This document shows positions 1 through 23,477 of a stretch of 23,477 nucleotides of DNA, in pieces. The position numbers and the translations under genes are program-made. Every line of letters starts with the position of its first letter. Within the stretch, counting starts at the first letter, position 1. This DNA is from a virus. The stretch lies in IMG/VR virus record IMGVR_UViG_3300034418_000523, positions 1 to 23,477 of that record. One strand, 5' to 3'. Under the pieces are notes generated by a model that was not told the DNA's origin, made no database searches, and was given only the letters and a program-made list of their open reading frames with translations.

Positions 1-102
1 CCTACAGGCACTGGCGGTGGCAACATCGGAATCGGAAATGTTCCGGTTGCAGGGGAAGATCAATTCTCTGGTACGCCTAGAGCAGTTGCCGGAGCAGGTT
101 AA
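1..102 (+). CDS. C-terminal end of an upstream CDS, probably the portal protein (partial)
   Basis: The first frame is open from the window edge to a TAA at 100-102. Its 33 visible residues are Gly-rich, including the stretch GTGGGNIGIGNVP, followed by an acidic-to-small tail ending AVAGAG. Low-complexity Gly/Pro tails are common at the C-terminus of podovirus portal proteins, and in T7-like genomes the portal gene sits directly before the scaffold and capsid genes, so portal is the expected neighbour. That assignment is inference from position, because no portal core is inside the window. The same DNA is also open in the second frame (see the 2-133 entry). The stretch looks more GC-rich than its surroundings, which would fit two overlapping coding frames. 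Confidence 0.5.
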   Translation, partial: PTGTGGGNIGIGNVPVAGEDQFSGTPRAVAGAG

Positions 103-133
103 AGAAGCAGCAAATAGAAAAGAGGAAATATGA
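2..133 (+). CDS. C-terminal end of a small helical protein overlapping the portal-like frame (partial)
   Basis: The second frame is open from the edge to a TGA at 131-133, which overlaps the next gene's ATG at 130 as ATGA, a classic translational-coupling arrangement. The visible 43 residues contain SESEMFRLQGKINSLVRLEQ and then a charged Lys/Glu end. This is an amphipathic helix with normal leucine spacing, not the skewed composition of a random frame. Small helical proteins of this kind between portal and scaffold are familiar in marine podoviruses, though I cannot name a family. Either this frame or the 1-102 frame could be the only real one. The protein-like sequence and the coupled stop make this one at least as likely, and both may be used. 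Confidence 0.55.
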   Translation, partial: LQALAVATSESEMFRLQGKINSLVRLEQLPEQVKEAANRKEEI

Positions 134-885
134 AAAAAAAGAGTTTATTAAAAGACGATAGCTTTCCAGATTTAAATAAAGACGGTGAAGTTACTTATGC
201 TGATGTATTAGAAGGCAGAGGTGCTTTTGCGGTTGGTGGTTCTCTTTTAGCAGATGATATGCCTGTAGAAGAAAACAAAATGGATGAACCTATGATGGAA
301 GAACCTATGGTTAAAGAACCTATGATGGATGAACCCATGATGGATGAGCCTGAAGAGGATATGCTTCCTGATGATGAGATGGAAGATGAATACTTAGATT
401 TTATTTTAGACGAAGCATTAGATAGCGAAGAAGAAGACTATCTAATGTCACAGTTACAAAGCAACGAACAACTTAGCGAAATATTCGACAAAGTTATAGA
501 CGTTGCACAAGAATTTGCTGGGTCTGGTCCTGTTGAAGGTCCGGGTTCAGGAGTCTCTGACAGCATACCCGCAAGGTTATCTGATGGAGAATTTGTCTTT
601 ACTGCTAAAGCTGTAGAAGAAATCGGAGCCGACAACTTAATGGCGATGATGAAAGATGCAGAAATGAAAGCAGATGATAGACAAGGTTTAGCTGAAGGTG
701 GAGAACCTGAAGAAGATACTGTTGAAATGGAGGTTGAAAAACCTGCAACTAAACAGGATATTAGAGTAGTGAAAACTACTGTAGATAATGGTGGTAAAGG
801 ATTATTAGATGAAGATGAAATATCTAAAAGTATTAAATCTAAAATGATGCTTGACAACCGAACTGGAAGACACGTCCAAAGCTAA
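130..885 (+). CDS. Acidic virion-module protein with EF-hand-like loop and SDSIPARLSDGEFV motif
   Basis: This 251-residue protein has a good ribosome site (AGAGGAAA) just before its ATG. Residues 14-25 read DLNKDGEVTYAD, matching the spacing of a calcium-binding EF-hand or dockerin loop (D14, N16, D18, E20, D25). Residues 51-74 are five Met-Glu-Pro pentapeptides. Residues 75-125 are strongly acidic and probably helical. Residues 139-175 hold GSGVSDSIPARLSDGEFVFT and a helix; Ser-Asp-x-Ile-Pro-Ala-x-Leu-Ser-Asp-Gly-Glu motifs of this type recur in phage structural proteins, but their role is not known to me. GG motifs occur at 36-37 and 190-191. It lies between the portal-like end and the scaffold, so a role in head assembly or packaging of internal proteins is plausible but unproven. 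T7 has no obvious counterpart at this place. Confidence 0.85.
   Translation: MKKKSLLKDDSFPDLNKDGEVTYADVLEGRGAFAVGGSLLADDMPVEENKMDEPMMEEPMVKEPMMDEPMMDEPEEDMLPDDEMEDEYLDFILDEALDSEEEDYLMSQLQSNEQLSEIFDKVIDVAQEFAGSGPVEGPGSGVSDSIPARLSDGEFVFTAKAVEEIGADNLMAMMKDAEMKADDRQGLAEGGEPEEDTVEMEVEKPATKQDIRVVKTTVDNGGKGLLDEDEISKSIKSKMMLDNRTGRHVQS
280..351 (+). repeat. In-frame tandem pentapeptide repeat (15-bp unit)
   Basis: This lies inside the acidic protein gene, residues 51-74. Five consecutive units follow the pattern Met-acidic-Glu-Pro-Met, with one variant unit beginning Val-Lys. The DNA copies differ at synonymous sites (for example GAACCT, GAACCC and GAGCCT), so the array is not a very recent slippage product. 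It probably forms an extended acidic, methionine-rich linker. Confidence 0.8.
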
Positions 886-896
886 ACAAACTTAAC

Positions 897-1012
897 GGTA
901 GGGCTACCTTATGTCATAAGCACCCTATCATTTTATAAACCGAAAGGCTACCTTTACATACAAGCCCTCTAGTCGACATAGAGCTACCTTGTGAACGAAG
1001 CCCCCGTAGGAG
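897..1012 (+). promoter_or_regulatory. Scaffold-gene leader with three bulged-hairpin repeats
   Basis: The 133 bases between the acidic protein gene and the scaffold hold no convincing ORF but show three copies of one unit: GCTACCTT, exactly seven bases, AAG, then a C-run. The units begin near 902, 946 and 982. Each can fold as a CTT/AAG stem with a 7-base loop, and in the first copy the stem extends to CTTATG/CATAAG. In copies 1 and 2 a GG before CTAC can pair with the following CC, leaving CTAC as a one-sided bulge. Copy 1 is preceded by GGTAG (897-901), which can pair with CTACC (904-908). Copy 3 is followed by GTAG (1006-1009), which overlaps the scaffold's Shine-Dalgarno AGGAG (1008-1012) and could pair with CTAC at 984-987. 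A regulatory RNA role is inference; the repeats themselves are directly visible. Confidence 0.6.
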
Positions 1013-1018
1013 AAGAAT

Positions 1019-1879: not shown

Positions 1880-1914
1880 TTAACTATTAACTAAAAACTT
1901 AGGAGAATATCAAC

Positions 1915-2889
1915 ATGGCTCAATATTTTGAACCCGGAACTGATACTAATGCTAACTTTGCAAACTCTGTAAGTGGACAAACTAATAGTTTCTTTTTACC
2001 TTCGGTTTACTCTAAAAAGGTTTTAAACTTTTTTAGAAAATCGTCTGTTATCGAAGCTATTACTAACACCGACTATGCCGGTGAAATCACTGCTTATGGA
2101 GACTCTGTAAAGATTATCAAAGAACCCGTTATCTCTGTGTCAGATTACACAAGAGGTAGCGATACTACTGCCACTAAACTAACAGACCAAGAAACATCTT
2201 TGGTTGTTGACAGTGCTAAAGCTTTTAAATTCATCGTAGATGATATTGAGAGCAAAATGTCACACGTCAACTTCAAAGAAGTAGCTTCAAGCTCTGCTGC
2301 ATATGCATTGAAAGATTCATATGATGCTGCTGTCTTAGCTGTTATGTTTGCTGGATTGTCTGCTTCATCACCTAACCACGTTTTAGGTTCTGACAACGCT
2401 ACTGATTTAGCTGCTGGAACTTTTGACGGTACAGGTAACCTAGACATAGGTTTTGATTCTAACGAACATGACCCTCTAGACCTTATGGGTAGAATGTCAA
2501 GACTATTAGACGAACAGAACGTACCTGAAGAAGGTCGTTGGTTTGTTGCAAGTCCTGATTTCTATGAAGTTCTAGGACAATCTAGTTCTAAATTGTTGTC
2601 AGTAGACTACAATGGTGGACAAGGTTCGATTAGAAACGGACTAGTATCAAGTGGAAAACTACGTGGATTTAGTATGTATAAATCAAACAACATTGCTGCA
2701 CCATCTAATGCTGCTGGTAAATGTTTGGCTGGACATATTTCATCTACAGCTACAGCTCAAGCTATCACTTCAACTGAGGTCCTTAGAGACCCTAGTTCTT
2801 TCGGTGATATCGTGAGAGGTCTTCATGTCTATGGTGCGAAAGTACTTAGAGATGAAGCAATTGTAGGTGCTTTCTACGGTATTGATTAA
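1915..2889 (+). CDS. Major capsid protein (T7-like)
   Basis: This 324-residue protein (T7 gp10A is 345) has the features expected of a podovirus coat protein. The N-terminal arm is rich in Asn and Ser. A segment SKKVLNFFRKSSVIEAITN is followed by a beta stretch with DSVKIIKEP (E-loop-like), then a long helix region with DDIESKMSHVNFKE. Alanine-rich central residues and a C-terminal beta segment ending LRDEAIVGAFYGID complete it. It should adopt the HK97 fold. A strong Shine-Dalgarno AGGAG precedes the ATG by 9 bases, and a strong hairpin terminator follows 10 bases after the stop, both fitting very high expression. Its position after the scaffold is diagnostic. The family call is by texture and synteny, not by an alignment. 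Confidence 0.9.
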   Translation: MAQYFEPGTDTNANFANSVSGQTNSFFLPSVYSKKVLNFFRKSSVIEAITNTDYAGEITAYGDSVKIIKEPVISVSDYTRGSDTTATKLTDQETSLVVDSAKAFKFIVDDIESKMSHVNFKEVASSSAAYALKDSYDAAVLAVMFAGLSASSPNHVLGSDNATDLAAGTFDGTGNLDIGFDSNEHDPLDLMGRMSRLLDEQNVPEEGRWFVASPDFYEVLGQSSSKLLSVDYNGGQGSIRNGLVSSGKLRGFSMYKSNNIAAPSNAAGKCLAGHISSTATAQAITSTEVLRDPSSFGDIVRGLHVYGAKVLRDEAIVGAFYGID

Positions 2890-2899
2890 TACCAACTTT

Positions 2900-2930
2900 G
2901 GGGGAGTCTTAGGACTCCTCCTCTTTTTTT
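2900..2930 (+). terminator. Rho-independent terminator after the capsid gene
   Basis: A nine-pair stem (2900-2908 with 2913-2921, including one G-T wobble) closes a four-base TTAG loop. It is followed by TCTTTTTTT at 2922-2930. It lies between the capsid stop and the next ribosome site and should reduce read-through after the most abundant transcript. Confidence 0.9.
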
Positions 2931-2959
2931 AACGCATAAATTTTACAGAGGTAAATAAT

Positions 2960-3436: not shown

Positions 3437-3471
3437 TATACAGTTTTAAGGTATTGACGAAACAGTCTAAC

Positions 3472-3500: not shown

Positions 3501-3511
3501 AAGGAATAATT

Positions 3512-3691: not shown

Positions 3692-3696
3692 TTAGT

Positions 3697-3867
3697 ATGA
3701 AAGGCGTACCTCATTACAAAAGAGATGGAACTGAATGGAAAGGCAAGACTCATAAAATGCCTAACGGAGATTTACATACTAATACAAATCATACAAAAAC
3801 AAGTGTAAAACTATTTCACTTTAAAGATTTAAGTAAGAAAGCAAAACTAAAAGCTAAAGGTAAATAA
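3697..3867 (+). CDS. Small basic Lys/His-rich protein (56 aa)
   Basis: The frame starts at the ATG at 3697, five bases after the previous stop, and ends at the TAA at 3865-3867, which overlaps the next ATG as TAATG. The product has a His/Lys-rich N-terminal half with KRDGTEWKGKTHKMPNGDL at about 8-26 and a C-terminal basic helix with LFHFKDLSKKAKLKAK. I recall this pattern from short proteins of marine phages, without known function. The ribosome site is weak, so translation may depend on coupling to the preceding gene. Nucleic-acid binding is an obvious guess from its charge, but nothing in the sequence proves it. Confidence 0.7.
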   Translation: MKGVPHYKRDGTEWKGKTHKMPNGDLHTNTNHTKTSVKLFHFKDLSKKAKLKAKGK

Positions 3868-4634
3868 TGGCAACAACATATTTAGATTTAACTAACGAAG
3901 TACTAAGAGAACTCAATGAGATACCTCTTACGTCTGCAAACTTTTCAAGTGCTGTAGGACTTCAGCAGTTTACTAAGGATGCCATCAACAAGTCTATATT
4001 CGATATAGCAAATGAAGAACCACAGTTACCATTTTTTGCAGTAGGTGAAAGTGGTGGAACTGACCCATTCTATGGAAACGTGACAGTGGCTACAGTAGCT
4101 GGTACTAGATGGTACGAGTTAAAAGCTAGTAGCTCAAGCGTTCAAGACGATTACGCTTCGATAGACTGGGACGATTTTTATTTAACCACCATTAACGTGA
4201 GTGGTGAATCATCTCCTTTTGTCTCAAGAGGATTACAGTTTTTAAACTTAGCTGATTGGAAAAGATATTACAGAGACAACGAAAACATAGACGATGCAGA
4301 TTCACAGGCTTATGGTGAGCCTTGCAGAGTTATTAAATCACCAGATGGCAGGAAGTTTGGCTTAAGTCCAATCCCTGATAAAGTTTACAACGTACACTTC
4401 TATGCGTTTGAAAAGCCTACAAAGCTTTCAGCTCATGGAGATACCGTTGTATTCCCAGAACAATACACGAATGTTATAACTGCTAAAACAAGATACTATG
4501 TATGGCAGTTCAAAGAATCTCCACAACAAGCAGCTTTTGCTATGGATGATTACAAGAAAGCATTGAGGAGCATGAAATCTAATTTGATTAATCCTACTCC
4601 TCGTACTATGACAGACGATAGAAAGTACTTTTAA
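3867..4634 (+). CDS. Tail tubular protein A-like adaptor (head-tail connector ring)
   Basis: This 255-residue protein begins MATTYLDLTNEVLRELNEI, the typical first helix of podovirus adaptor proteins (T7 gp11, 196 residues; P22 gp4 serves the same place). It continues with helices containing FTKDAINKSIFDIANEEP (residues 37-54), then a beta-rich middle (80-190), and a C-terminal helix pair with TAKTRYYVWQFKESPQQA before ending near KYF. Such proteins form a dodecameric ring that docks on the portal and carries the tail nozzle. It overlaps the upstream stop by one base, with AAAGG upstream. It is longer than T7 gp11, with the excess in the middle beta region. The assignment rests on the helix pattern and on the order before the larger tube protein. 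Confidence 0.75.
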   Translation: MATTYLDLTNEVLRELNEIPLTSANFSSAVGLQQFTKDAINKSIFDIANEEPQLPFFAVGESGGTDPFYGNVTVATVAGTRWYELKASSSSVQDDYASIDWDDFYLTTINVSGESSPFVSRGLQFLNLADWKRYYRDNENIDDADSQAYGEPCRVIKSPDGRKFGLSPIPDKVYNVHFYAFEKPTKLSAHGDTVVFPEQYTNVITAKTRYYVWQFKESPQQAAFAMDDYKKALRSMKSNLINPTPRTMTDDRKYF

Positions 4635-4646
4635 TAGGAGAAAACA

Positions 4647-4889
4647 ATGAAAAGATTTTTAAAAGGTGTAGGTAAAGCAGCGTACAATATTAAAACAGCC
4701 CCCGTAAGGGCACAAGCAAAAGTAGTAGGAGCTGTAGCTGGAGCACTTCCGGGTAAAGCTGCAAAAGCTGTTTCTAATGCTGCAATGAAAGTTGCACAAC
4801 CTTTAAACAAAGGTGGTAGAGTTGGTTTAAATAAAGGCGGACAACCATCTTACAAAAATGGCGAAATGCCAACAGCCAAACCTAATTAA
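4647..4889 (+). CDS. Small basic Ala/Lys-rich protein with doublet GGRVxxxxGG motif (80 aa)
   Basis: An AGGAG site precedes the ATG. Residues 1-50 form a basic, alanine-rich amphipathic segment (KRFLKGVGKAAYNIK, then alternating small and Lys residues), probably helical and able to touch membrane or nucleic acid. Residues 53-65 read LNKGGRVGLNKGG, followed by a polar tail. The same GGRV-four-residues-GG doublet occurs near the N-terminus of the 675-residue protein encoded from 12672. It lies between the two tail-tube genes, a place with no T7 counterpart. The function is unknown; a minor virion or ejected protein is the best guess from its relatedness to other virion genes. Confidence 0.7.
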   Translation: MKRFLKGVGKAAYNIKTAPVRAQAKVVGAVAGALPGKAAKAVSNAAMKVAQPLNKGGRVGLNKGGQPSYKNGEMPTAKPN

Positions 4890-4899
4890 AAAATAATTT

Positions 4900-6510
4900 A
4901 TGGCAACATCACAACCTTATACAGTTGCATGTGCTGGTGGTTTAGTCAAAGCTTCTAATCAGATTGACTTACTTAAAACTCCCGGTGTAGCTACAGACCT
5001 TAGTAACTTTGAAGTTTCTATCGAAGGTGGTTATAGACGTATTAATGGTTTTAGTAGACTAGGAGCTGGTAGTGCAGCTCAAGTCAGTGGTAGTACTGAT
5101 ACTATTCTTGGAGTTATACCTTACGGTGATGGAGTTATAGCTTGTGCATCGACAGGGATATTCTTTAGTCAAGATGGCACAAGTTGGTTGAACGTAAGTA
5201 GAAGTTCAGTAGCTAGTAGTGGCGATAACTATACAGCCTTTACAGGTCGTAGTACACTATCAAGAACATCACAAGGACAAGTAAGTTTTGCATTGTTTGA
5301 AGGACCAACATACGATTATGGTATGTTAATGATTGCTGATGCAAATAATTTAATATATTATTTTAGAATGGAAGGTACTGGTGCTAACATTAACACTAGA
5401 ACTTTTTTTTCAGGAACAATAGACCCAACACACTCATCTACTAAAAAAGCTCAACATGTAACAATACATGACAAGCGTTTAGTTGCAGCAGGTGTTGAAG
5501 ATAATTTAAGTACAGTATTCTATAGTTCTTTATTAGACCCGACAAGTTTTAGTGGTAGTGGTGCAGGTTCAATAACTTTATCAGACCAAATAGTAGGTAT
5601 TAGAAGTTTCCGTCAAGAACTTTTTATATTTTGTAGAAACAGTATATTCAAGCTACAAGATATAAACGGTACACCGGTGGTAGTTCCAGTGGCAAAAAAC
5701 ATTGGGTGTCTATCAGGTTACAGTATCCAAGAGATAGGTGGTGACCTTATTTTCTTAGCACCCGATGGATTAAGAACGGTTGCTGGTACTGCAAGGATTG
5801 GAGACGTTGAGTTAGGTACAGTTAGTAAAGCTATACAACCTATTATTACACAGTTAGCAGAAAACATTAACAAGTTTGTAATATCAAGTGTTGTTATTAG
5901 AGAAAAGTCTCAGTATAGATTATTTTACACAGATACTACAGTTATCAATGCACAACAAAAAGGAATTATAGGAACACTTAGACCAAACGGGTTTGAGTGG
6001 TCAGAAACAAAAGGAATAGAAGTAACCAGTATAGGAGCTGGATTTAATGATGATGGTGTTGAAAAATATTTTCACGGTGATACTGATGGCTATGTGCTTG
6101 TACACGATTCAGGTAACGACTTTAATGGGTCTAACATACTTGCTAGATACGCCACACCAGACTATGACTACGGAGACTTAGGAACTTTAAAAACTTTACA
6201 CTATGTTAGAGTTTCTTGTTCAGCCGAAGGAGTTGTAACTCCAGCACTACAAATTAAATACGACTTTAACAGTCAAGATATTCCACAACCAACAAGTGAT
6301 TTTTCTTTTGGTACAGTTAATCCACCTGCAATCTTTGGAGATGCAGTGTTTAATGCAACAGTATTTGGTGGTACTGCAGCACCGATGATAAGAATACCAG
6401 TACAAGGAAGTGGTACAAGTAATAACTTTACAGTTGTTACAGAAGATACAAAACCACCATACAAGATAAATGGTTTATATATAGATTTTATACCTTCAGG
6501 TAGGAGATAA
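4900..6510 (+). CDS. Tail tubular protein B-like / tail hub protein
   Basis: This 536-residue, strongly beta-rich protein starts with a polar segment and residues ATDLSNFEVSIEGGYRRING (about 31-50). That pattern is typical of podovirus tail nozzle or hub proteins, where a short arm is followed by a propeller-like domain of repeated strands with Gly-Asp turns. The middle contains IYYFRMEG, LFIFCRNSIFKLQDING and LFYTDTTV strands. The C-terminal third is a probable beta-sandwich ending DFIPSGRR. It is shorter than T7 gp12 (794) and nearer P22 gp10 (472). Together with the adaptor it should build the tail tube and anchor fibres. No Shine-Dalgarno is visible; the ATG sits in an A/T-only run after the preceding stop. 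Confidence 0.75.
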   Translation: MATSQPYTVACAGGLVKASNQIDLLKTPGVATDLSNFEVSIEGGYRRINGFSRLGAGSAAQVSGSTDTILGVIPYGDGVIACASTGIFFSQDGTSWLNVSRSSVASSGDNYTAFTGRSTLSRTSQGQVSFALFEGPTYDYGMLMIADANNLIYYFRMEGTGANINTRTFFSGTIDPTHSSTKKAQHVTIHDKRLVAAGVEDNLSTVFYSSLLDPTSFSGSGAGSITLSDQIVGIRSFRQELFIFCRNSIFKLQDINGTPVVVPVAKNIGCLSGYSIQEIGGDLIFLAPDGLRTVAGTARIGDVELGTVSKAIQPIITQLAENINKFVISSVVIREKSQYRLFYTDTTVINAQQKGIIGTLRPNGFEWSETKGIEVTSIGAGFNDDGVEKYFHGDTDGYVLVHDSGNDFNGSNILARYATPDYDYGDLGTLKTLHYVRVSCSAEGVVTPALQIKYDFNSQDIPQPTSDFSFGTVNPPAIFGDAVFNATVFGGTAAPMIRIPVQGSGTSNNFTVVTEDTKPPYKINGLYIDFIPSGRR

Positions 6511-11802: not shown

Positions 11803-12402
11803 ATGTGGGCTTTAGTAGAATCAGATAACGTAACACAGGTCTATACAAGACCTAAAGGTTTAACCATAGGTGATGTAAATTATCCTAGTAATATCTTTAT
11901 GCTTTGGACATCTTCTGAATTAGAAGCTATAGGGATTTATGAAGTTGTTATAGACAACTCAAACTTAAAAGACAAAGAGTATTACGTAAATACAAATCAG
12001 TCTTTTGCGTTTGCAGACGGTACAGTCACAGCATCTTATGGTACAGCTACAGCAAAAAATATAGCAGATACTTTATACACTGCACAAGACGAGACTGATG
12101 GTTTAGGAACTGAAGGTGAAGTTAAACAACCGGGCATCCGTCAAGGTCATATAGACAGGATAAACGCACAAGCTGCTGGTATATTACAACCTACAGACTG
12201 GATGGTTGTTAGAGCTGCAGAAGGTGGTACAGCAGTTCCTAGTTCTATTACAACTAAAAGAGCTGCAGTAAGAACCAAAGCTAACGCTATGTGTACACAG
12301 ATAACAAACGCTGCAAACGTTGATGCTTTAGCAGCTTTATACGTTTACAACGATGCAACACCACCAGTAAGACCTCTTGGCGAACTACCACAGGTAGACT
12401 AA
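11803..12402 (+). CDS. Probable tail-fibre assembly chaperone / small tail protein (199 aa)
   Basis: GAGG lies 8 bases before the ATG. The N-terminal half (1-75) has strands with MWALVESDNVTQVYTRPKGL, SNIFMLWTSSELEAIGIYEV and KDKEYYVNTNQSFAF. This is the familiar pattern of phage proteins that begin with a short beta domain describing a residue-by-residue fibre cap or chaperone. The C-terminal half is helical, with LQPTDWMVVRAAEGGTAVP, then TKRAAVRTKANAMCTQI, resembling the TDW-R-R core of tail-assembly chaperones (Phage_tail_APC-like). It lies just after the fibre and adhesins, the usual place for such a helper. The chaperone role is inference; a structural tip protein is the alternative. 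Confidence 0.65.
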   Translation: MWALVESDNVTQVYTRPKGLTIGDVNYPSNIFMLWTSSELEAIGIYEVVIDNSNLKDKEYYVNTNQSFAFADGTVTASYGTATAKNIADTLYTAQDETDGLGTEGEVKQPGIRQGHIDRINAQAAGILQPTDWMVVRAAEGGTAVPSSITTKRAAVRTKANAMCTQITNAANVDALAALYVYNDATPPVRPLGELPQVD

Positions 12403-12671: not shown

Positions 12672-14699
12672 ATGTCAAAAAGAAAAGATAGAAAAAGAAG
12701 TTCAGTAGAAAGACAAGACTATCGTCAAGGTGGTAGAGTACAAGCTCAAGAAGGTGGTCGTTTTGAATACGATCAAATTCGTGGTTTACAAAATCAACAA
12801 GCTTATGACCCTGTTGCAATAGCACAAGCTCAACAAGATGCTGCAGAAGCTGCTGCTAAAAAAGCAGAAGAAGAAGCTGCTGCAAAAGCTGCAGAAGAAG
12901 CTGCAAAGGCTGCAGAAGAAGCAAAGAAAGTTGAACTAAGACAATCTATTGATGATGCTGCTGCTGGTAAAGTTCCAACACAGGCTGTAGTACCAGATGC
13001 TATTCCAGTTCCAGATACTGCTCCTCAACAAGTTACAACAATGGCTGCACCTACCACAGTTCAAACAAGAACTGCACCGGGTGTTGGACAAGAACAAGTA
13101 ACTACAGTAGATCAAACTGCACAAGCTCAAACACCAGAACAAATACAAGCTGCACAGATGGCAGCAACTACAGTTGATACAGATGCACAAGTAGAAGCTG
13201 CAACTGGAGAAGTTTCTGATGAATCTATTGCTCAAGCTGCAGGTGTTGAACGTGTACCAACAATTCAAGCTGCAGATGTAGAAATACCAGAAGGTGCTTT
13301 AACTGAAAGAGTTATTGGTACATTAAGTCCTGAAGCTCAATCAACTGCTGTAATGAACGTTGGTAGTTCTCTAGCAAGAGTTACAAGGGCTAAGAAACAA
13401 TTAGCAAATGCTGGACTAAGTGATGCAGATATTACAGAGCTTGGTAACGACCCAGAAGCTTTAGAAGATAGACTAGCAGACTTTAGTGAAGCTGAAAGAG
13501 GTATTATAGCTGGATTACCAGAAGAAGCTTTAGTATCTAATCAGATAGACACATTATTAAAAGGTATTGAAGAAGGTGAGATTCCTACATGGGCTAGACC
13601 TGCTGTAGCAGCAGTAGAGTCTGTATTAGCTCAACGTGGTATGTCCGCATCCACAGTCGGAAGAGATGCCTTGCTCAATGCTATTATACAATCAGCAATG
13701 CCTATTGCTCAGTCTAATGCACAAGCAATACAAGCTAGTGTTGGACAACAAAGAACAATAGAAGCACAAGAAGCTGAAGCTAACGCAGTTAGAGGACAAC
13801 AGACAGCATTAACAAATGCAAGTAATGTCTTCCAGCTTAACATGGCTCAGTTTAGTGCTGACCAACAAACCGCATTATCTAATAGTAAGTTCTTACAAAC
13901 TGTAGGATTAACAGATGCTAGTATGGACCAACAAGGGATTATGCAAGATGCTGTAATGATGTCTCAAGCTAATCTAGCTGAAGCAGACTTTAATCAGCGT
14001 ACTCAAATACAAAATGCTCAAGCTTTTTTACAAATGGATTTAACAAACCTAAGTAATCAGCAACAAGCAAACGTATTAAGGTCTCAACAAACTCAGCAAC
14101 GTTTGTTAAGTAATCAAGCTGCTCAAAATGCTGCAGCTCAGTTTAATGCTACAAGTGAGAATCAAACTAATCAGTATATGGCTAGTTTAAATGCTCAGAT
14201 TAATCAGTTTAACGCAGCTCAACAAAATGCTACAGAACAGTTTAATGCTACACAGTCTAACGCTGCTGCAGCTAGAGATACACAAAGACAAGCTGATTTA
14301 AATAAGTTTAACACACAGTTAGCAACACAAGTAGATCAGTTTAATGCTAATCAAGACTTCGCAAGGAATCAATGGAACGCACAAAACGTTGCTGCTGTTG
14401 AAGCTTCTAACGTACAGTGGAGAAGACAAACAAACGTAGCTAACACTGCTGCTCAGAATGCAGTTAATATGCAGAATGCCCAGAATGCTTTTGCAATGTC
14501 ACAAACTGCACAATCTTTCTTATGGCAAGAACTAAGAGATCAAGCTGATTATGATTTTAGAAACTCTGAAAATGAGAAGAACAGAATTGCACAACTTGTA
14601 AACACTGCACTAGCTTCAGACCCTTCTAAATATAATTCAAGTTTAGGAAACTTAAACAGTCTGATAGGACTAATAGCCGGAGACGTAACAGGAACATAG
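12672..14699 (+). CDS. Large Ala/Gln/Asn-rich helical internal virion protein (675 aa)
   Basis: AGGAAA precedes the ATG. Residues 1-30 are very basic (KRKDRKRSSVERQ) and end in the doublet RQGGRV plus QEGGRF. Residues about 52-95 are an Ala-Glu-Lys helix resembling the TolA long helix. Residues 95-210 are Pro/Thr/Gln-rich and probably extended. Residues about 210-350 are a folded helical region with LANAGLSDADITELGNDPEA. Residues about 360-640 are Gln/Asn/Ala-rich with QFNA-type units at roughly 11-residue spacing, which would form hendecad coiled coils. The end contains MSQTAQSFLWQELRDQADYD. It heads the ejection-protein block, so it is the probable counterpart of a T7 core protein or a tape-like element. 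There is no enzymatic motif. Confidence 0.7.
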   Translation: MSKRKDRKRSSVERQDYRQGGRVQAQEGGRFEYDQIRGLQNQQAYDPVAIAQAQQDAAEAAAKKAEEEAAAKAAEEAAKAAEEAKKVELRQSIDDAAAGKVPTQAVVPDAIPVPDTAPQQVTTMAAPTTVQTRTAPGVGQEQVTTVDQTAQAQTPEQIQAAQMAATTVDTDAQVEAATGEVSDESIAQAAGVERVPTIQAADVEIPEGALTERVIGTLSPEAQSTAVMNVGSSLARVTRAKKQLANAGLSDADITELGNDPEALEDRLADFSEAERGIIAGLPEEALVSNQIDTLLKGIEEGEIPTWARPAVAAVESVLAQRGMSASTVGRDALLNAIIQSAMPIAQSNAQAIQASVGQQRTIEAQEAEANAVRGQQTALTNASNVFQLNMAQFSADQQTALSNSKFLQTVGLTDASMDQQGIMQDAVMMSQANLAEADFNQRTQIQNAQAFLQMDLTNLSNQQQANVLRSQQTQQRLLSNQAAQNAAAQFNATSENQTNQYMASLNAQINQFNAAQQNATEQFNATQSNAAAARDTQRQADLNKFNTQLATQVDQFNANQDFARNQWNAQNVAAVEASNVQWRRQTNVANTAAQNAVNMQNAQNAFAMSQTAQSFLWQELRDQADYDFRNSENEKNRIAQLVNTALASDPSKYNSSLGNLNSLIGLIAGDVTGT

Positions 14700-14700
14700 T

Positions 14701-15696
14701 ATGGGATTATTCAAATCAATTAAAAAAGCTTTTAAAAAAGTAACACGTGGAATTAAAAAAGTAGTCAAGGGTGTTGTTAAAGGAGTTAAAAAAGTAGTTA
14801 AAAAGATTAGCTCTAGTAAAATACTTAAAGCGTTAGCCATTGCTGCTGCAGTCGTAGTGACGGGAGGTGCTGCTATTGGGGCATTTGGAGGAACAGCAGC
14901 TTCGTCTACTTTTGGAAGTTGGATGGTTGGAGCTAGTAATGCTATTACTGGATTTACAGTAGCAGGTATTCCTGTTGGAGCTGTTATGAAACCGTTTCAA
15001 TATGTTGGAGCTGCTATTGGTTCAACTGCTGGTAAGCTTACAGACTTAACAGGTATAACTACTGAAGCAGGAAGAACTGGTATTACAGTTACAGCCCCTG
15101 CAGCTCCGGGTGCAGTTCCTACAGTAAGTAACACAACTGTCACTGCTCAAGCAGCTCCGGGTGCAGTGCCGGGAGTAACTGAAACAGTTGTAACTCCGGG
15201 AACAGCAGGAACAGGAGCAAGAACAGTGGGCACTCAACTAAATGCTAGTAATACAATTACCGCAAAGGGTACAGCAGCAACTACTCCTTATGTAAGCACA
15301 CCATTATCAGACCCTATTGTTGCTACAGCTACTAAAGCACCGGGAAGTATAGCTCCTATAACAAATACAGTTGTAACTCCTACAGAAGCAGCATCAACTT
15401 TTGCAACTAGAAATCCAAAGACTGCAGCTTTTTTAAAGGGAGCAGGAACGGTAGCAACTCAAGTTGGTACAAGTGTAGCTGCTGGATATGCCATGCATCA
15501 GCTAACCGCACCAGATGAAACAGGTTCAATGGGTGGTTTAAGAACTGAAGGGGCTTCAAGCTTTGACCCACTTAGAGTTTATGCTGCTGAAAGAGGTATT
15601 GCAGATTCAGACATATCTAAATACTTTACATTTGGCAACACTGCAGAAGCAGGTAACATGCCACTGTTTCAACAACAAACTATAGGAGTAGCATAA
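14701..15696 (+). CDS. Polybasic/hydrophobic probable membrane-active ejection protein (331 aa)
   Basis: AGGA precedes the ATG, one base after the previous stop. Residues 4-38 are a repeated Lys-x-x-Lys-Lys pattern with Val and Ile (KKAFKKVTRGIKKVVKG), strongly amphipathic like a membrane-active peptide. Residues 43-66 are a hydrophobic Ala/Val/Gly segment. Residues 66-115 contain further small-residue hydrophobic stretches. Residues 118-240 are Thr/Pro/Ala-rich with repeated APGAVP. Residues 240-270 form another Ala-rich helix and the end is polar. A charged helix plus hydrophobic segments fits a protein that enters the membrane during DNA delivery, as T7 gp14 does in the outer membrane, but homology is not shown. 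The C-terminus overlaps the next start (TAATG). Confidence 0.65.
   Translation: MGLFKSIKKAFKKVTRGIKKVVKGVVKGVKKVVKKISSSKILKALAIAAAVVVTGGAAIGAFGGTAASSTFGSWMVGASNAITGFTVAGIPVGAVMKPFQYVGAAIGSTAGKLTDLTGITTEAGRTGITVTAPAAPGAVPTVSNTTVTAQAAPGAVPGVTETVVTPGTAGTGARTVGTQLNASNTITAKGTAATTPYVSTPLSDPIVATATKAPGSIAPITNTVVTPTEAASTFATRNPKTAAFLKGAGTVATQVGTSVAAGYAMHQLTAPDETGSMGGLRTEGASSFDPLRVYAAERGIADSDISKYFTFGNTAEAGNMPLFQQQTIGVA
15100..15167 (+). repeat. Direct repeat GCAGCTCCGGGTGCAGT, two copies 51 bp apart
   Basis: The 17-base copies lie at 15100-15116 and 15151-15167 inside the polybasic protein gene and encode AAPGAVP in the same frame. Exact DNA identity contrasts with the diverged DNA of the fibre repeats, suggesting a younger duplication of a 17-residue unit. 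Confidence 0.75.
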
Positions 15697-16430
15697 TGGC
15701 ACAACCTACCAGAGGTCCAAGACCAATTGTTTCAGACAGTATATCTGATGTAGCTGCACAATCCGTACTAGATGGTTTAGATGCCGGGTTTACTATTGAT
15801 GAAATAGCCCCAGATAACGGTCCTAAGATACGAGGAGAAGCTAAATTTAATCAAGAAGGCTTAGATGAGGTGGTAGCTTTATCATCACAAGGCAGACCTA
15901 TACCGGGTCAAAGTCTAGTCAATGACCCATCACAACCCTACATGTGGGAACAACCACCAGAGTTTGCTAATCCAAGAGATGCATTAGACTATATGACTGG
16001 TCTTATTATGCAGCCAGATGCAATGAAAGAAATTGTAGGAGCTTTAGCAAATGGTGCAGCAGTTGCAGACATTGCAATGGTTATGCTATATACAAAGTTT
16101 ACAGAGGGTAAATTTAATCCTGATGTTTTACTTTTATTAGCAGAGCCGGTTATGTATGTAATTATGGCAATTGGTGAAGAAGCTAACATCAAATATAACA
16201 TTGAAGATAGTAACGATTTAGATGAGTTTGATGAAGACGATAACGAAGAAGAGATTGAAGGTAAGCTTAATGAGTTTAGAAATGTCTTTGAAGATATCAA
16301 AAACGGTACAACTAAAAAAGGCATAGAGCCTAGCAAAATTAAAAGTGGTGTAGTACCACAAAACATTCTAGACAAGGTTAAAGAACAAGGTCCAGAAATT
16401 AGAAGTTTATTAAGTCAAGGAGAAGAATAA
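15696..16430 (+). CDS. Virion structural protein of unknown role (244 aa)
   Basis: TAATG overlap upstream and downstream, with AGGAG in the end of the preceding gene. Residues 1-65 are polar. Residues 68-90 contain RPIPGQSLVNDPSQPYMWEQ, followed by a helical domain (93-165) with two hydrophobic helices, GALANGAAVADIAMVMLYTK and LLLLAEPVMYVIMAIGEEAN. Residues 170-190 are an acidic Asp/Glu run, and the tail is charged and helical. From memory, proteins with PG-x-SL-x-NDP, W-x-x-PP and LAEP-x-x-Y-x-I-MA elements occur as structural proteins of T4-like marine phages; if right, this family crosses phage morphotypes. The two hydrophobic helices could also be membrane-entering. The enzymatic role, if any, is not visible. 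Confidence 0.7.
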   Translation: MAQPTRGPRPIVSDSISDVAAQSVLDGLDAGFTIDEIAPDNGPKIRGEAKFNQEGLDEVVALSSQGRPIPGQSLVNDPSQPYMWEQPPEFANPRDALDYMTGLIMQPDAMKEIVGALANGAAVADIAMVMLYTKFTEGKFNPDVLLLLAEPVMYVIMAIGEEANIKYNIEDSNDLDEFDEDDNEEEIEGKLNEFRNVFEDIKNGTTKKGIEPSKIKSGVVPQNILDKVKEQGPEIRSLLSQGEE

Positions 16431-18172
16431 TGGCACAAGAAGATTATCTATCAGGTTCACAGTTTGGACAAGTTGCTGGTTCTTTATTAGCAGGTAAACG
16501 TAAAAGAGATAAGAAAGACTTTAGAAGGGCTTTATTAGCTTCAGCAATTTTTGAAGGTTTTGGAGCTTTACAAAGAAATATGAAACAAAAAATTGTTGAT
16601 GGAGTTAATGATGTTAAAGATAAGTATACAGATATTTTTCAAAACAATCAGGTGTTATATGAATTACAAGATAAAAACAGAGGAAAATATCAGTCTTATC
16701 TAGAAGATAAAGATGCTTACTTACAAAAAGAAGCTATTAGATTATTTAATGAGCATCCTAATTCACAGGCTGAAGGTATTCAGTACAGTGATATCAGAGG
16801 GTTAAATCCTGAAAGTAAAAAACATGCAATGGCTGAATACAACAGACTAAGAACAGAAGCTGAACAAAAAATTATGGCTCTTGGTAAAAATCCAGCAGTT
16901 TCTATAGCAACTCCAACTCAATACAACGCAGCAGCAAAGGCTGAATATAAAGCAGCATTAGCTCAAGTAGAAGACGACCCATACAAACAAGGACTTATTA
17001 AATCTGCTTTTGCTAAGATATTTGGAACCGGTGCAAAGACACAAGCTGACTTAGCTGATGAATTAGACAAAGCTCAAAGATTAAGAATTGCTAGAGAAGA
17101 GTTGTCTTCACCAAGTGAAAGCATTGAAGTACAAGACGATGAGGAAATTAAAGATATTATTAATGCTAACAACAAAGCAGCTACAGATATAAAAGATGGT
17201 AATCCAGATTTCTTTGACTATATAAGTACAGAAGAAGACCTTAAATTAAAACGTACTGCTTTTTCAAATAAGATTAATCAGTCTGGTTATGCATACACTT
17301 TAGATGATTTAAATATGGCAGGAGAGTTAGGTATAGATTTACCCGGACTACCCGGCTTTAATAAAGTTATGACTGAACAACGTGAAGCTCTTGTTGGTGC
17401 ATCGAAAAAAGCTAGAGAAGCTTATCAAAAAGGTATACATCCTTTTGAGGTATTAGAAGGTGAAGAAGCTGTGGTTTATGGTTTAGCAATTGGTACAAGT
17501 TTAGACACGTACAAAGGAAATAAAATTACAAGACAGCTTAATGAATTAAGATTAAATAAAATTTTAAATCCAGACGTTGAGCAGTTAGACCTTGCTGAAG
17601 TCAATGGATTAATTAATAATAAAAATAATATTGCTTTAGCAGAAAGTCAAATTTTAAGTATTGCAAGAGAAAAAGATTTAAATTTATTTAATGATGTTTC
17701 AAGAAAATTACCAGATGCAGAATTTAGTGCTATGAAAAGTAGAGTTATTATTACTGCAGAAATGCTTTTAAGAGAAAAAAGTTCGCAATATACAGGAACT
17801 GAAGCATTTAATAATGCGATAAAAGATGCTGTAGAAATTCAACTTATGGGAGTTTATACAGCACAAAATTTAATGTTTGACCCGTTCAAAAATAGAAATA
17901 ATTTAAAACATGAAATGGTAGACATTAATGATTTTAGGTTATTACAAGAAGACATAGAAACAAATGACCAAGCTCAACGACTTGTTAATCGTTTAAATAA
18001 AAAACAATATATGCAAAATCAAATAATTATGGAAGACGATAAAGAAATGACATTGGTTCCTGATGAACTAGGTAAATTTTTTACAGAAGAAAATTATCGT
18101 TTTTCTGTAATTCAAGTAGATGAAAACGACCCAACATCTTTAAGATGGTCTTGGGAAAGTATTAGTAATTAA
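16430..18172 (+). CDS. Large helical probable internal virion protein (580 aa)
   Basis: TAATG overlap with the previous gene, and AGGAG just upstream. Residues 1-60 combine a small-residue segment (QFGQVAGSLLAGKRKRDK) with a basic amphipathic helix containing LLASAIFEGFGALQRN. The rest is overwhelmingly helical and highly charged, with many Lys/Glu/Gln heptads (AEYNRLRTEAEQKIMAL, EALVGASKKAREAYQKG) and no signal peptide or catalytic motif. It ends with a short beta stretch, RFSVIQVDEND. Size, helicity and position directly before the giant lysozyme-bearing gene match T7 gp15 (747 residues), which forms the ejectosome tube with gp16. That equivalence is inferred from order and character only. 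Confidence 0.7.
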   Translation: MAQEDYLSGSQFGQVAGSLLAGKRKRDKKDFRRALLASAIFEGFGALQRNMKQKIVDGVNDVKDKYTDIFQNNQVLYELQDKNRGKYQSYLEDKDAYLQKEAIRLFNEHPNSQAEGIQYSDIRGLNPESKKHAMAEYNRLRTEAEQKIMALGKNPAVSIATPTQYNAAAKAEYKAALAQVEDDPYKQGLIKSAFAKIFGTGAKTQADLADELDKAQRLRIAREELSSPSESIEVQDDEEIKDIINANNKAATDIKDGNPDFFDYISTEEDLKLKRTAFSNKINQSGYAYTLDDLNMAGELGIDLPGLPGFNKVMTEQREALVGASKKAREAYQKGIHPFEVLEGEEAVVYGLAIGTSLDTYKGNKITRQLNELRLNKILNPDVEQLDLAEVNGLINNKNNIALAESQILSIAREKDLNLFNDVSRKLPDAEFSAMKSRVIITAEMLLREKSSQYTGTEAFNNAIKDAVEIQLMGVYTAQNLMFDPFKNRNNLKHEMVDINDFRLLQEDIETNDQAQRLVNRLNKKQYMQNQIIMEDDKEMTLVPDELGKFFTEENYRFSVIQVDENDPTSLRWSWESISN

Positions 18173-18181: not shown

Positions 18182-21100
18182 ATGGCATTAAAAGATAAGT
18201 TGGTTAATTCTGGCATACCAACTGTACAACCCCTTACAACTCCGAAACCTAGTTATACGCTAACTGATCTTCGTAACGATGATGAGTTTACTATGCGTAG
18301 TGAAAGGTATTTGAAGTCTTTAGGTGAGGGAGATAATGTTGATGAAATGTTCCAATACTTTCGTGGTTCAGATTTAAATTTATATGATACTCACAAAGTG
18401 TATAGACAAAGTAAAAAGTTTACAGATGAGCAGAAAGACGATTATTTATATTTAAAAAATAAATTTGATAATGCTAGAGTAGGTGGTATTAAAGAAAAAT
18501 ATCAGTTAGGTGTAGATGCAGCTCAAGAAATTGTATCCGACCCTACAATTTTAGCAAGTGCGTTTTTTGTTCCATTTACAGGTGGTGCTTCTGCAGCCGG
18601 AAGACTTGCAATGGGTGCTGCAGCTAAAACAGGATTAAAATCTATGGTAGCAAGTAATATTGCTAAAGGACAAGCACTTGGTATTCCTAAAGGTGTATTA
18701 ACTGCTGGTCAAGTTTTATCTAAACCTCTTAGTAATAAAGCTACCTATGGTGTGTTAGCAGCAGAAGGAGCCTTATATGCTGGTACTTTTGATTATGTTG
18801 CTCAAGATAGACAACTTGAACTAGGCTTAATAGATAAGAAAAACCTTGTGCAAACAGGTATATCAGCTACAGTAGGGGCTATTGCAGGTCCTGCATTACT
18901 GGGTGCTGGTAGAGGACTAGCAAAAATACCTTCCAAAGTTAAACAAATTGAAGAGGTTAGAGTTTCTAACATCGACAACAATGAAAATTATAAACCTACA
19001 TTTATTGAACGTGGTAATCAAAAATTACTAGCAGGTACTTATGGTGTGTTAGGTTTAATACCTTTAAAACCTACAACAATTTTATTAAAGAAAGCAGAGA
19101 AATCTCCATACTTGTTAAGCCTTTTAAAGTTATTTAGGTACGATGCTGCACAAGGCTTTGTAGCTCCTAAGATAGGTAGTCAAGAAACACTTGCTCCTAG
19201 TTATGATGAAGTCTTTAGAGATTTAGTAGGCTCATCACAACAAAAGGTTAATGCTATTTTACGTAGTTATAAATCTTTATGGACTTACGATAAGGCTAAT
19301 GTTGCATTACCTTTTAGTGCTGGTCACTTTTTAAACCCCTTGAGAAGTAAAACTACTAGAACAAGAAAAAGTTTAAAATTTAAACAGGCTTTAACACAGG
19401 AAGCTAACGATGATCTTGCATACTATTTAAGATCAGGTAATATTTCTAGGGTGGTAGAAGTTGCACCTAATAAATTTAAACAAGTTAAATTGTCTGATGA
19501 TATTGTTAGTGCTGGAAAACAAATTAGAAAAGAACTAGACAATACTTTAAAAAGAGCAGAAAATGCTGGTATTAAAATTGGTTCAGTTAAGGGGTTCTTT
19601 CCTAGATTTTGGAGAACAGACGTTATTAAAAATAACAAAGATGAGTTTATTGAATTAATTAAAAGAGGAGAAGGTTTAAACGATGCTCAAGCTACAAAGC
19701 TCTGGGAAGAGTTGGCAACAGAAGGATCAGAAGTTGGTAGTAGTGCTGTTAATTTAAATGCACGTATTAAACAAAGCAGAAGACTAACAAAAATAAATGA
19801 TGCTAGATTTGGTAAGTTTTTAGATAACGATGTGCGTAATGTTTTAGATGATTATTTTGCAGAAGCTTCTAAACTTATTATTAGAACTGAAATGTTTGGA
19901 GAAACAGAAGGTAAGTTTACGCAAAAATGGATAAACAAAATTCAAAGACAACTAGGTAAAAACAGATTAACAAATACAGAGCTAGAGTATTTAAAAGATT
20001 TATACAATTATACAACTGGGATTAAAGGAAAGATAGATACTTCTACTCCTCTTGGTAAACTTGGACAAGGTTTTTCAGATTTCTTAACCATAACAATGCA
20101 AACTTCTATGTTAGCATTTTCTACCGTTACAAGTTTACCTGAAGTAGGAGTTAATTTATTAAGGGGAGCACCTGTTAGACCCGGTGTAAATGCAATGGTT
20201 AAGGGTATAGCAGACGGTACTTCTGAATGGTGGAAATCTCAAAAAGTTAATTATGGTCCTTACTTAAATGTAATAGGAAAAGAATTTAAACAAGAAGCAA
20301 ACTTAGATGTAAGAAGTCAAAATAGACAAGACTTAAATGAGTTTTATATCTCTACAGATTCGTTAAAAGAAGACAGGCTTATGTCTATTTATGGTCAAGC
20401 AGTGGGTAAAACAGCTACAAAAGTACAAAATGCTTTTTTTAAAACAGTTTTACTACATCAGTGGACAAGGTATGTACAGCTTGTTGGTTATGATATGGGT
20501 AAGTCTATTATATATAGAAACTTAAAACAAATTGATGATTACAATAAAGGCATAATTAAAAATACAAAAGCACAAGAAGTTAATATGCTTCGATTAAAAG
20601 ATGAATTGGCTGAGTTAGATATAGATATGGTTGGAGGGCTTGAGTGGATTAACAGGGGAGCCAAACACACTGATGATTTTTTTAATAATGTTAAGGCTGG
20701 TGCTGCAAGATATACAAATGAAGTAGTAATGAATCCAACTGCAGCTTCAGCACAGAAACCACTGATGCATTCTAGACCTATTGGTAGAGTCATTTATGGA
20801 TTAATGGGTTTTCCAACTGCATTTTCTAATACAGTTTTACGAAATGCTATGAGAAACTTAACCAGAGACGGTAAAACTTTATCTGCTGGAGGTACTAAAG
20901 TTTCTGCTGTTCATGCACTAACTGCTGCTATGTTTATGACACAAGTCGGTATGCTAAACCACACACTTAGAACAGGTGGTAGAAACTTAGAGCAATATGA
21001 AAACGGTGAATTATCTGGTCTAGACTTGGTTCTGAAAGGAGCTTCTTACTCTGGACTAATGGGTCCAATGGAAATGTACTATCGTTATGGAAAATCAAAA

Positions 21101-23477
21101 CGATACGAAAGTAATATTACTGCTGCAATCGGGTCTGCTATTGGACCAAATGTTCCAGACATTATTGATTATTTATATATGATTCAGTCTAGAGGTTCAT
21201 TAACAGAAGTTGCTTTAAGACGAGCACCCTTTTCTATGGCACTTAAAAGTTATCATCCAGATAAATATGAAGAAGTTTTAAAGAAAGCCAGAGAAATAGA
21301 TAAACAATTGTTTGCACCTGATAGAGAAAAAGAAATAGAACAAGTTCCTTTTGCAAAAGGCGGTATAGTTGAGGGAGAAGATAATGTTCCTTACACTAAA
21401 GAAGACCCAGCAGATAGAATTAATCCTTATACAGGACAACCTTACAAACGTGAACAGCGTAACATAGGTGGAAGAATTATATCGAAAGAGATTTTAAAAC
21501 TTATAGGAGACGAGCCAATTAAAAAAGTTAAAAGTGTTGGTTCACCAACTTTAGTAAAACCTGTTGATGAGGGTAAACATGCGTATGATGTTTTGGGTAT
21601 TGACGATGAGTTTTTAAAAAATTGGAAAGTTGAAAATTCAAAAGTCGTAAAGCAAAGACAAGAAGAGTTTGGGATAGATGATAAACTAAAAAGAAATAAA
21701 ACAGTTTTAAAAGCTTTAGAAGAACTAAGTGAAAATGAAATACCTTATGGTCAATACAAAAAAATTGTAGAACGAGAAAACCCTGCTAAACTTTTTGAAG
21801 ATGTACCAGAACCACCATCTTATACTGACATCACCGCATCTTTACAAAGTAATAAAATTAAAAAGGGTATTGTTTATTTAAATAGAAACATACCAGACGG
21901 TACTATAGTAGGTGGAAGATTAGACATACCTGCTTATAAAGACCACGATGTGTGGGTGGTAAGTCTTCATTTACCAAAAGGACAAGGAACTGTTTATGGT
22001 AAAACAGGATACTTTAAAGATGTAACTTTTGGTGATGCAAAGTTATCGCAAAAAAGTTTTGACATTGCTGCCGGTAAAGCCAAAAGTCCAATTGCTCAAA
22101 TGATTGGTAAATGGCAAAACCACACACCCGGTGAGTTATTTGCAAAAGCAAAAACATTATTAAATGACCCAGAATGGACACAGGTTGGATACAACCCGTT
22201 TAGGTTTGGATTTTTTTATGACAGAAAAACAATGAATCCGGTTATAGCTGCTGACGAAGCTATTCAAATTGGTCCGTTTGTTATTGCTAAGAACGTAACA
22301 ACAGCGTTACCAACTGACAAACGTTTTGAGGTTAAGTTAGACGATAAAAGATTTAACTTCGAAAAGGGTGGCACGGTTTCTACCAACGAACAAATGGATA
22401 GGTTAGGGTTTGATAAAGGTGGAGAAAATATTTTTTCTAAATTAATTGATAGTATAAAAGAAAAAGTTCCTGCACCTGCACGATTATATTATGATAAAGT
22501 TATAAGACAAGATAAAAATCCTATAACAGAAAAAGATTTCACTGAAAAAGAATATCAAAATATTAAAAATTATTTTAAACAAACTTTAATAAATGATATT
22601 AAAAGTGGAAAAATTAAATTTGATAATCAAGGTAATGCCCAATATATAAGACAAGATGAAAAAGGTAGAACTTTTACTAAACCTGTTATAAGTGGATATA
22701 GAAGTGTTGAAAAAAATTTTGAACCTTCAAGTACAACAGTATCTCAAAAAAACAAAGAAGCTCTATCTGATTTGGGTCTATTAGACTTACAAGAAAAAAT
22801 GAACAATTCTTCTGATGGTAATGTAAAAGATTTTACAAATGTGTTTGGTGAAGCATCTTATAGTTTTAAAAAAGATGGTTATGAAAACTCTACAGCAAGT
22901 ATTGATGATGTGTATGATTTTAATTTTACCTATGCTGGAGGATATAATCCAGAAAAAGAAAAAGCTGGTATTTTAAACACAGCAAACAGGAGAAAATATT
23001 TAGCTCTATTAAATCAAGAAACTTTAAGAGGTTCAAAAAATCAAAACATAATACAAAGATCACGACCTTTACTTGAACGTTATGCAGCGTTTAGACTTCC
23101 AGATAAAAAAACTGCAGAAATGTTAGAACAAGATTATCAACCAGTTAATGTAAAGGTTAATATACCAATACAAGATATTTTTACACAGGATGAGTGGTCA
23201 AATTTATTTGGTTCAGAACAAACAAGACAAGGATTACAAGAAGGTGGTCCAGTACTACCTGTTTTAACTTTTGCTGATGGAAATAGCAGAAAACTTACTC
23301 CAAAAGAATTTGATAACATGGTAGCTATAAATGAATATTTAAAAGGTAAAGGCTATAGAAAAGAAGCTAGGGCTGGAATTTTAGGTAATATACATATAGA
23401 AACTGGAGGAAGCTTTAGTCCTACTCAGATAGAAAAAGCACAAAATAAAAAATTAGGTTATGGAATTTTTCAATTAA
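18182..23477 (+). CDS. Giant multidomain ejection protein with a tail-lysozyme domain (partial, at least 1765 aa)
   Basis: I followed this frame line by line from the ATG at 18182 (AAGG upstream) to the window edge: 1765 codons with no stop, so the C-terminus lies outside. Residues about 111-250 are Ala/Gly-rich with hydrophobic segments. Residues 250-1050 are mostly helical and charged, with a hydrophobic stretch near 633-660. A KGG motif at 1059 starts a linker with EDNVPYTKEDPADRINPYTG. Residues about 1230-1385 form a folded alpha/beta domain (DHDVWVVSLHLPKGQ, GKTGYFKDVTFGD, EWTQVGYNPFRFGFFYDRKT). KGG recurs at 1395 and 1412, and EGG at 1688. Residues 1706-1765 match the phi29 gp13 lysozyme pattern: NEYLKGKGYRKEARAGILGN, IET with likely catalytic E1740, and GYGIFQ at 1759-1764. 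It is the likely T7 gp16 counterpart, with the lytic domain placed far from the N-terminus. Confidence 0.85.
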   Translation, partial: MALKDKLVNSGIPTVQPLTTPKPSYTLTDLRNDDEFTMRSERYLKSLGEGDNVDEMFQYFRGSDLNLYDTHKVYRQSKKFTDEQKDDYLYLKNKFDNARVGGIKEKYQLGVDAAQEIVSDPTILASAFFVPFTGGASAAGRLAMGAAAKTGLKSMVASNIAKGQALGIPKGVLTAGQVLSKPLSNKATYGVLAAEGALYAGTFDYVAQDRQLELGLIDKKNLVQTGISATVGAIAGPALLGAGRGLAKIPSKVKQIEEVRVSNIDNNENYKPTFIERGNQKLLAGTYGVLGLIPLKPTTILLKKAEKSPYLLSLLKLFRYDAAQGFVAPKIGSQETLAPSYDEVFRDLVGSSQQKVNAILRSYKSLWTYDKANVALPFSAGHFLNPLRSKTTRTRKSLKFKQALTQEANDDLAYYLRSGNISRVVEVAPNKFKQVKLSDDIVSAGKQIRKELDNTLKRAENAGIKIGSVKGFFPRFWRTDVIKNNKDEFIELIKRGEGLNDAQATKLWEELATEGSEVGSSAVNLNARIKQSRRLTKINDARFGKFLDNDVRNVLDDYFAEASKLIIRTEMFGETEGKFTQKWINKIQRQLGKNRLTNTELEYLKDLYNYTTGIKGKIDTSTPLGKLGQGFSDFLTITMQTSMLAFSTVTSLPEVGVNLLRGAPVRPGVNAMVKGIADGTSEWWKSQKVNYGPYLNVIGKEFKQEANLDVRSQNRQDLNEFYISTDSLKEDRLMSIYGQAVGKTATKVQNAFFKTVLLHQWTRYVQLVGYDMGKSIIYRNLKQIDDYNKGIIKNTKAQEVNMLRLKDELAELDIDMVGGLEWINRGAKHTDDFFNNVKAGAARYTNEVVMNPTAASAQKPLMHSRPIGRVIYGLMGFPTAFSNTVLRNAMRNLTRDGKTLSAGGTKVSAVHALTAAMFMTQVGMLNHTLRTGGRNLEQYENGELSGLDLVLKGASYSGLMGPMEMYYRYGKSKRYESNITAAIGSAIGPNVPDIIDYLYMIQSRGSLTEVALRRAPFSMALKSYHPDKYEEVLKKAREIDKQLFAPDREKEIEQVPFAKGGIVEGEDNVPYTKEDPADRINPYTGQPYKREQRNIGGRIISKEILKLIGDEPIKKVKSVGSPTLVKPVDEGKHAYDVLGIDDEFLKNWKVENSKVVKQRQEEFGIDDKLKRNKTVLKALEELSENEIPYGQYKKIVERENPAKLFEDVPEPPSYTDITASLQSNKIKKGIVYLNRNIPDGTIVGGRLDIPAYKDHDVWVVSLHLPKGQGTVYGKTGYFKDVTFGDAKLSQKSFDIAAGKAKSPIAQMIGKWQNHTPGELFAKAKTLLNDPEWTQVGYNPFRFGFFYDRKTMNPVIAADEAIQIGPFVIAKNVTTALPTDKRFEVKLDDKRFNFEKGGTVSTNEQMDRLGFDKGGENIFSKLIDSIKEKVPAPARLYYDKVIRQDKNPITEKDFTEKEYQNIKNYFKQTLINDIKSGKIKFDNQGNAQYIRQDEKGRTFTKPVISGYRSVEKNFEPSSTTVSQKNKEALSDLGLLDLQEKMNNSSDGNVKDFTNVFGEASYSFKKDGYENSTASIDDVYDFNFTYAGGYNPEKEKAGILNTANRRKYLALLNQETLRGSKNQNIIQRSRPLLERYAAFRLPDKKTAEMLEQDYQPVNVKVNIPIQDIFTQDEWSNLFGSEQTRQGLQEGGPVLPVLTFADGNSRKLTPKEFDNMVAINEYLKGKGYRKEARAGILGNIHIETGGSFSPTQIEKAQNKKLGYGIFQL

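Follow-up and report, generated by a model that had tools for sequence, protein, structure and literature searches.

The window, the whole stretch of DNA that was analysed, is an entire IMG/VR virus record (IMGVR_UViG_3300034418_000523) of 23,477 bp with 36.3% GC, and it carries virion genes (Table 1). It represents a structural-gene portion of the genome of a phage related to pelagiphage HTVC115P. The best annotated matches were to the pelagiphages HTVC115P, HTVC104P, and HTVC103P, all of Candidatus Pelagibacter HTCC7211, with HMO-2011 as a more distant annotated relative, while a near-DNA search of phage records with the window returned a 93-bp match in the tail as the sole hit. The clade to which the window belongs consists of marine podovirus-like phages. 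Relatives of the window phage (L095–L100) code for curli secretion proteins of the CsgG/CsgF type and for NifU_N and FecR domains.

Table 1. Genes, Pro-Gly codon pairs, and remaining GATC sites in the window
Feature	Position	Strand	Remarks
Whole window, phage structural-gene fragment	1..23477	.	CCAGG and CCTGG absent; GATC, GGCC, GCGC, and CAGCTG low
Major capsid protein gene, phrog_267	1915..2889	+	Served to place the phage; protein identity 60% to HTVC115P, 53% to HTVC104P, 51% to HTVC103P
Tail protein gene, phrog_10775	3867..4634	+	Protein identity 48% to HTVC115P, 46% to HTVC104P, 46% to HTVC103P
Large virion protein gene, C-terminal tail-lysozyme domain	18182..23476	+	Extends beyond the window end
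Pro-Gly CCGGGT, in the 130-885 gene	541..546	+	Codon-pair count; CCWGG avoided
Pro-Gly CCCGGA, in the major capsid gene	1933..1938	+	Codon-pair count
Pro-Gly CCGGGT	4749..4754	+	Codon-pair count
Pro-Gly CCCGGT	4981..4986	+	Codon-pair count
Pro-Gly CCGGGC	12130..12135	+	Codon-pair count
Pro-Gly CCGGGT	13077..13082	+	Codon-pair count
Five Pro-Gly pairs (15106, 15157, 15169, 15196, 15340), each CCG-GGN	15106..15345	+	Codon-pair count
Pro-Gly CCGGGT	15903..15908	+	Codon-pair count
Two Pro-Gly pairs (17342, 17351), CCC-GGN	17342..17356	+	Codon-pair count
Pro-Gly CCCGGT	20180..20185	+	Codon-pair count
Pro-Gly CCCGGT	22127..22132	+	Codon-pair count
GATC sites left (n = 11)	58, 1631, 12771, 13110, 14334, 14538, 18266, 19412, 19431, 19725, 23058		

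The original prediction held that CCWGG is missing from these 23.5 kb, where about 15 sites would be expected at a GC content in the mid-30s percent. Counting over the 23,477 bp confirmed this, with CCAGG and CCTGG both at 0 and an expected CCWGG count of 15.7 (independence), 17.0 (maximal-order Markov), or 16.4 ± 2.2 (synonymous-codon permutation). The permutation used the 17 window genes and 2000 shuffles that kept proteins and codon usage; the lowest count among the shuffles was 9 and zero was reached in none of the 2000, and 13.5 of the 16.4 expected sites were in-frame Pro-Gly sites. Restriction-site elimination was defined as observed/expected below 0.1 with more than 15 sites expected, and by this definition CCWGG is eliminated from the window (0 vs 16.4–17.0). 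CCSGG, counted in the same check, is above expectation (17 vs 3.8), and among all 5-bp interrupted palindromes with a W, S, or N centre, CCWGG is the lowest and CCSGG the highest relative to expectation. The predicted recoding of Pro-Gly was also exact: there are 16 such pairs, all in the genes that had been named, with 10 CCG, 6 CCC, and no CCA or CCT, against an overall proline usage dominated by CCW (CCT 120, CCA 102, CCG 24, CCC 19; 222 CCW vs 43 CCS). The observation is in fact stronger than was claimed. Besides CCWGG, other words have been purged: GATC (10 vs 54.5 expected; 11 sites in the list of Table 1), GGCC (0 vs 10), GCGC (1 vs 10.6), and CAGCTG (1 vs 20.5), all of which had been overlooked, are low as well.

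Methylated CCWGG could also be lost by mutation, either because Dcm-type 5mC decays by deamination to CTWGG/CCWAG or because very-short-patch (VSP) repair shaped the sequence. CCWGG sites that carry 5mC are known to be mutation-prone, and Dcm-like methylases occur in some Pelagibacterales, both of which would favour such a loss. However, plain 5mC deamination accumulates CTWGG/CCWAG, and these products are not raised in the window (CTWGG 22 vs 19.4 expected; CCWAG 29 vs 24.5), which excludes deamination; nor can deamination make the CCSGG that replaces CCWGG. VSP repair restores CCWGG from CTWGG mismatches and so acts in the opposite direction, adding sites. GATC, an adenine-methylation word, is purged as well, together with GGCC and GCGC. 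We regard mutational loss as having only a very slight chance of being correct.

The loss extends far beyond the window. Across 80 viral contigs of its clade (641 kb), sampled via the capsid gene from IMG/VR contigs that are redundant and mosaic, CCWGG occurs 17 times vs 471 expected, which is again elimination by the above definition, and GGCC twice vs 277, where the expected counts depend on the null chosen; after collapse of the clade to 38 clusters (95% nucleotide identity), CCWGG stands at 6 vs 232.5. Pro-Gly is written with CCC or CCG in 373 of 389 cases. By reading frame, CCWGG is found 16 times vs 329 in frame 0, 0 vs 21 in frame 1, and 1 vs 41 in frame 2, so that the out-of-frame sites are also missing (1 vs 62), showing that the target is the DNA word and not the codon pair. 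GATC is missing from many relatives and partly retained in those nearest to the window: several relatives keep about a quarter of the expected sites and most others none. The residual GATC suggests relaxed or ongoing selection. GANTC is not avoided in the clade (1762 vs 1509 expected).

Contigs near HTVC104P form a sister clade that is the mirror image of the window clade. In 699 kb, CCSGG is absent, CCGG is found 0 times vs 65 expected, and Pro-Gly is CCA or CCT in 570 of 570 cases. Across the capsid supergroup (160 contigs of ≥6 kb), 70 contigs have CCSGG and have eliminated CCWGG, 81 have CCWGG and lack CCSGG, and 9 are mixed, 8 of which hold only one or two CCWGG. The two clades therefore provide a natural experiment, in which selection on the motif can be told apart from composition. 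A codon-pair or compositional bias, whereby Pro-Gly favours CCS codons for translational reasons, would fit the fact that in-frame Pro-Gly supplies most of the expected sites. Nevertheless, it is practically negligible as an explanation, given the absence of out-of-frame sites, a sister clade of similar composition that writes only CCW before Gly, and SAR11 hosts that also write CCW before Gly (66 of 69). With these results, the part of the original prediction that read the absence as selection against an EcoRII/Dcm-type word is supported, the avoidance being lineage-wide, frame-independent, motif-specific, and mirrored in a sister clade, while the suggested VSP history fails on near-expected CTWGG and CCWAG counts. 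Another word, CASTG, is absent from HTVC115P (0 vs 46) and near elimination in the HTVC104P clade (17 vs 544).

Among isolates, CCWGG is eliminated in HTVC115P (0 vs 29), HMO-2011 (0 vs 69), and HTVC019P (0 vs 25), but not in HTVC104P, HTVC033P, or HTVC010P. On a quickly built capsid tree, the CCWGG state switched ten or more times, and recombination contributes, as seen in contig L007. This contig has 8 CCWGG vs 7.8 expected, all within its first 4.7 kb; CCWGG is absent from the remainder, the part that aligns to the window, and CCSGG is retained there, which makes a recombinant or chimera likelier than a reversal of the loss. HTVC010P has both GATC (131 vs 139) and CCWGG (30 vs 29.5) at expectation, while HTVC019P, also isolated on HTCC1062, has neither word; as the two phages differ despite a common strain, selection did not come from the host used in the laboratory. 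In HTVC010P, CTNAG (0 vs about 62) and GTSAC (0 vs 15) are missing.

That the purge follows the phage lineage rather than the laboratory host would also be expected if a phage enzyme cut host DNA at CCWGG while its own site-free genome escaped, and much of the phage gene content has no assigned function. We consider such a self-sparing nuclease improbable. In the 59 non-structural ORFs of two relatives of about 50 kb, no type II endonuclease family was found among the 25 of 27 families listed, the only nucleases among these being an endonuclease I of the T7 type and a single PDDEXK_1 protein; furthermore, since many words are purged together, equally many enzymes would be needed. The phage genomes checked contain no recognisable methylase or type II endonuclease. 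Protection by a phage-encoded C5 methylase was likewise rejected: PF00145 is found in 0 of 10 related phage records, and no methylase is among the Pfam matches of the window proteins or of the 59 ORFs. HTVC115P has an S-adenosylmethionine decarboxylase gene (PF02675; 12619–13017 in L088), which might deplete SAM and so weaken defences that depend on it, by analogy with the mode proposed for the T3 SAM hydrolase.

The avoidance goes furthest in the T7-like pelagiphage HTVC019P (Pelagivirus), from which CCNGG, GGNCC, GATC, GCGC, GGCC, CCGG, and CGCG are all absent. As Pro-Gly is encoded by CCNGGN and Gly-Pro by GGNCCN, the absence of CCNGG and GGNCC makes both dipeptides impossible, and the annotated proteome indeed has no Pro-Gly (23.4 expected) and no Gly-Pro (23.3 expected); for those next in line among the missing dipeptides, the expectation is only 4 to 5. 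Across 79 wild contigs related to this phage (785 kb), CCWGG (0 vs 499), GGNCC (0 vs 343), GATC (0 vs 1726), Pro-Gly (0 vs 453), and Gly-Pro (0 vs 458) are all missing. These contigs are redundant, but the 18 clusters to which they reduce (255 kb) still have no CCNGG (158 CCWGG expected). Thus, in this lineage, site avoidance acts through the genetic code and bans amino-acid pairs; we found no prior report of a restriction-caused dipeptide ban in the open-access literature. The same clade (L329–L408) is depleted in the non-palindromic words GGATG/CATCC (3 vs 707), GCTGG/CCAGC (0 vs 785), and GCAGC/GCTGC (4 vs 1004), and many 6-bp palindromes are likewise missing.

To the original proposal that candidate hosts be searched for CCWGG methylase and endonuclease genes, the Pelagibacterales gave a divided answer: C5 and Dcm-like methylase genes are present, and no CCWGG-cutting enzyme was identified in the 297 genomes, where the controls of the EcoRII-C search were silent. 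The set is the order of two genomes matched by what we take to be the SAR11 16S probe sequence. C5 methylase domains that pass the Pfam cut-off are found in 56 of the 297 genomes (about one-fifth), and some of these genes neighbour RE_Eco47II, RE_TdeIII, PD-(D/E)XK, and HNH genes, the first two being presumably families of GGNCC specificity. The EcoRII-C profile gave 0 of 297, but as the controls were silent as well the search is uninformative; DpnII was above cut-off in 0 of 297. SAR11 bacterial DNA shows none of the phage word depletions, its sole strong depletion being GAWTC.

At least five methylases among the best-scoring loci of the 297 genomes align to E. coli Dcm at 36–39% identity. 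PADLOC on three of these loci identified DrmA and DrmB in L413, DrmA in L411, and MzaC/D/E in L412 (DISARM gene scores: DrmA, E = 6e-217; DrmB, E = 7e-80), and a fourth locus, L415, has Z1/DUF4420/AIPR domains that match the Mza type. L411 and L413 are therefore apparent DISARM loci, and L412 and L415 appear to be Mza-type; by their gene content, they suggest CCWGG marking in Pelagibacterales. DISARM methylates CCWGG according to a review (PMC12926258), and a structural study reports it as repressed or relieved by its own methylation motif and not triggered (PMC9142583). Selection by a defence that marks CCWGG, namely class 2 DISARM or Mza, rather than by an EcoRII-type system, would be a sub-case of restriction-type selection that gains from the position of the Dcm-like methylases in such loci. 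It is unlikely, however, as only five such methylases are among the best-scoring loci and, for DISARM, a mechanism repressed by its motif predicts that CCWGG is kept (PMC9142583); DISARM alone would not select for CCWGG loss and is doubtful as the selecting agent.

Counterselection by host restriction-type defences is, in our view, the best explanation of the CCWGG loss and quite probably correct. We propose that CCWGG was lost because unmodified CCWGG DNA is destroyed by such defences in some natural hosts. The ancestors of the window clade would have been under long and strong selection for this loss, each new CCWGG being eliminated chiefly via the CCC or CCG spelling of Pro-Gly, and the same process could have purged GATC, GGCC, GCGC, and other words. 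The role of restriction as the agent is an inference, as is the identity of the hosts, which would be SAR11 or bacteria like it that carry such systems patchily. SAR11 MAGs have been reported without R-M, and the group is described as poor in the usual phage defences (PMC9516812); set beside the near-total purges in related phages, this would point to restriction that has gone unnoticed in the most abundant bacteria of the ocean. For the broader view that hidden, patchy host defences of the restriction type hold SAR11-type phages to combinatorial site-free genotypes, so that the missing words are a barcode of the defences met, we judge the chances to be about even. Lineages of the capsid supergroup have nearly all lost one of the two words, CCWGG or CCSGG, and Pelagivirus lacks both of these and GGNCC.

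The loss of restriction sites is a known phage route to escape bacterial DNA-cutting defences. By the same counting, coliphage T7 resembles the window clade in CCWGG (2 vs 56) and GATC (6 vs 140.7) but differs in that GGCC (68 vs 88) and GCGC (103 vs 112), both lost in the clade, are near expectation; in addition, the window itself retains some GATC, and T7 has a known Dcm/Dam host whereas the window does not. For prokaryotic viruses, Rusinov et al. (2018, PMC6286503) define site elimination by an observed/expected ratio under 0.1 for palindromes of the type II kind, and the window clade resembles those cases in this ratio, but here several words are lost jointly and across whole wild clades with SAR11-infecting isolated relatives. 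The CCWGG loss is unusually complete here. Site elimination itself was already known (T7; PMC6286503); the novelty lies in the lineage, the mirror-image clades, the range of words lost, and the Pelagivirus dipeptide ban. Finally, a bias in GANTC density partitions the SAR11 phage phylogeny (Seong et al. 2022, PMC9516812); here too a methylation word splits the phages, but the words are CCWGG, GATC, GGCC, and GCGC, and the loss is near-total.
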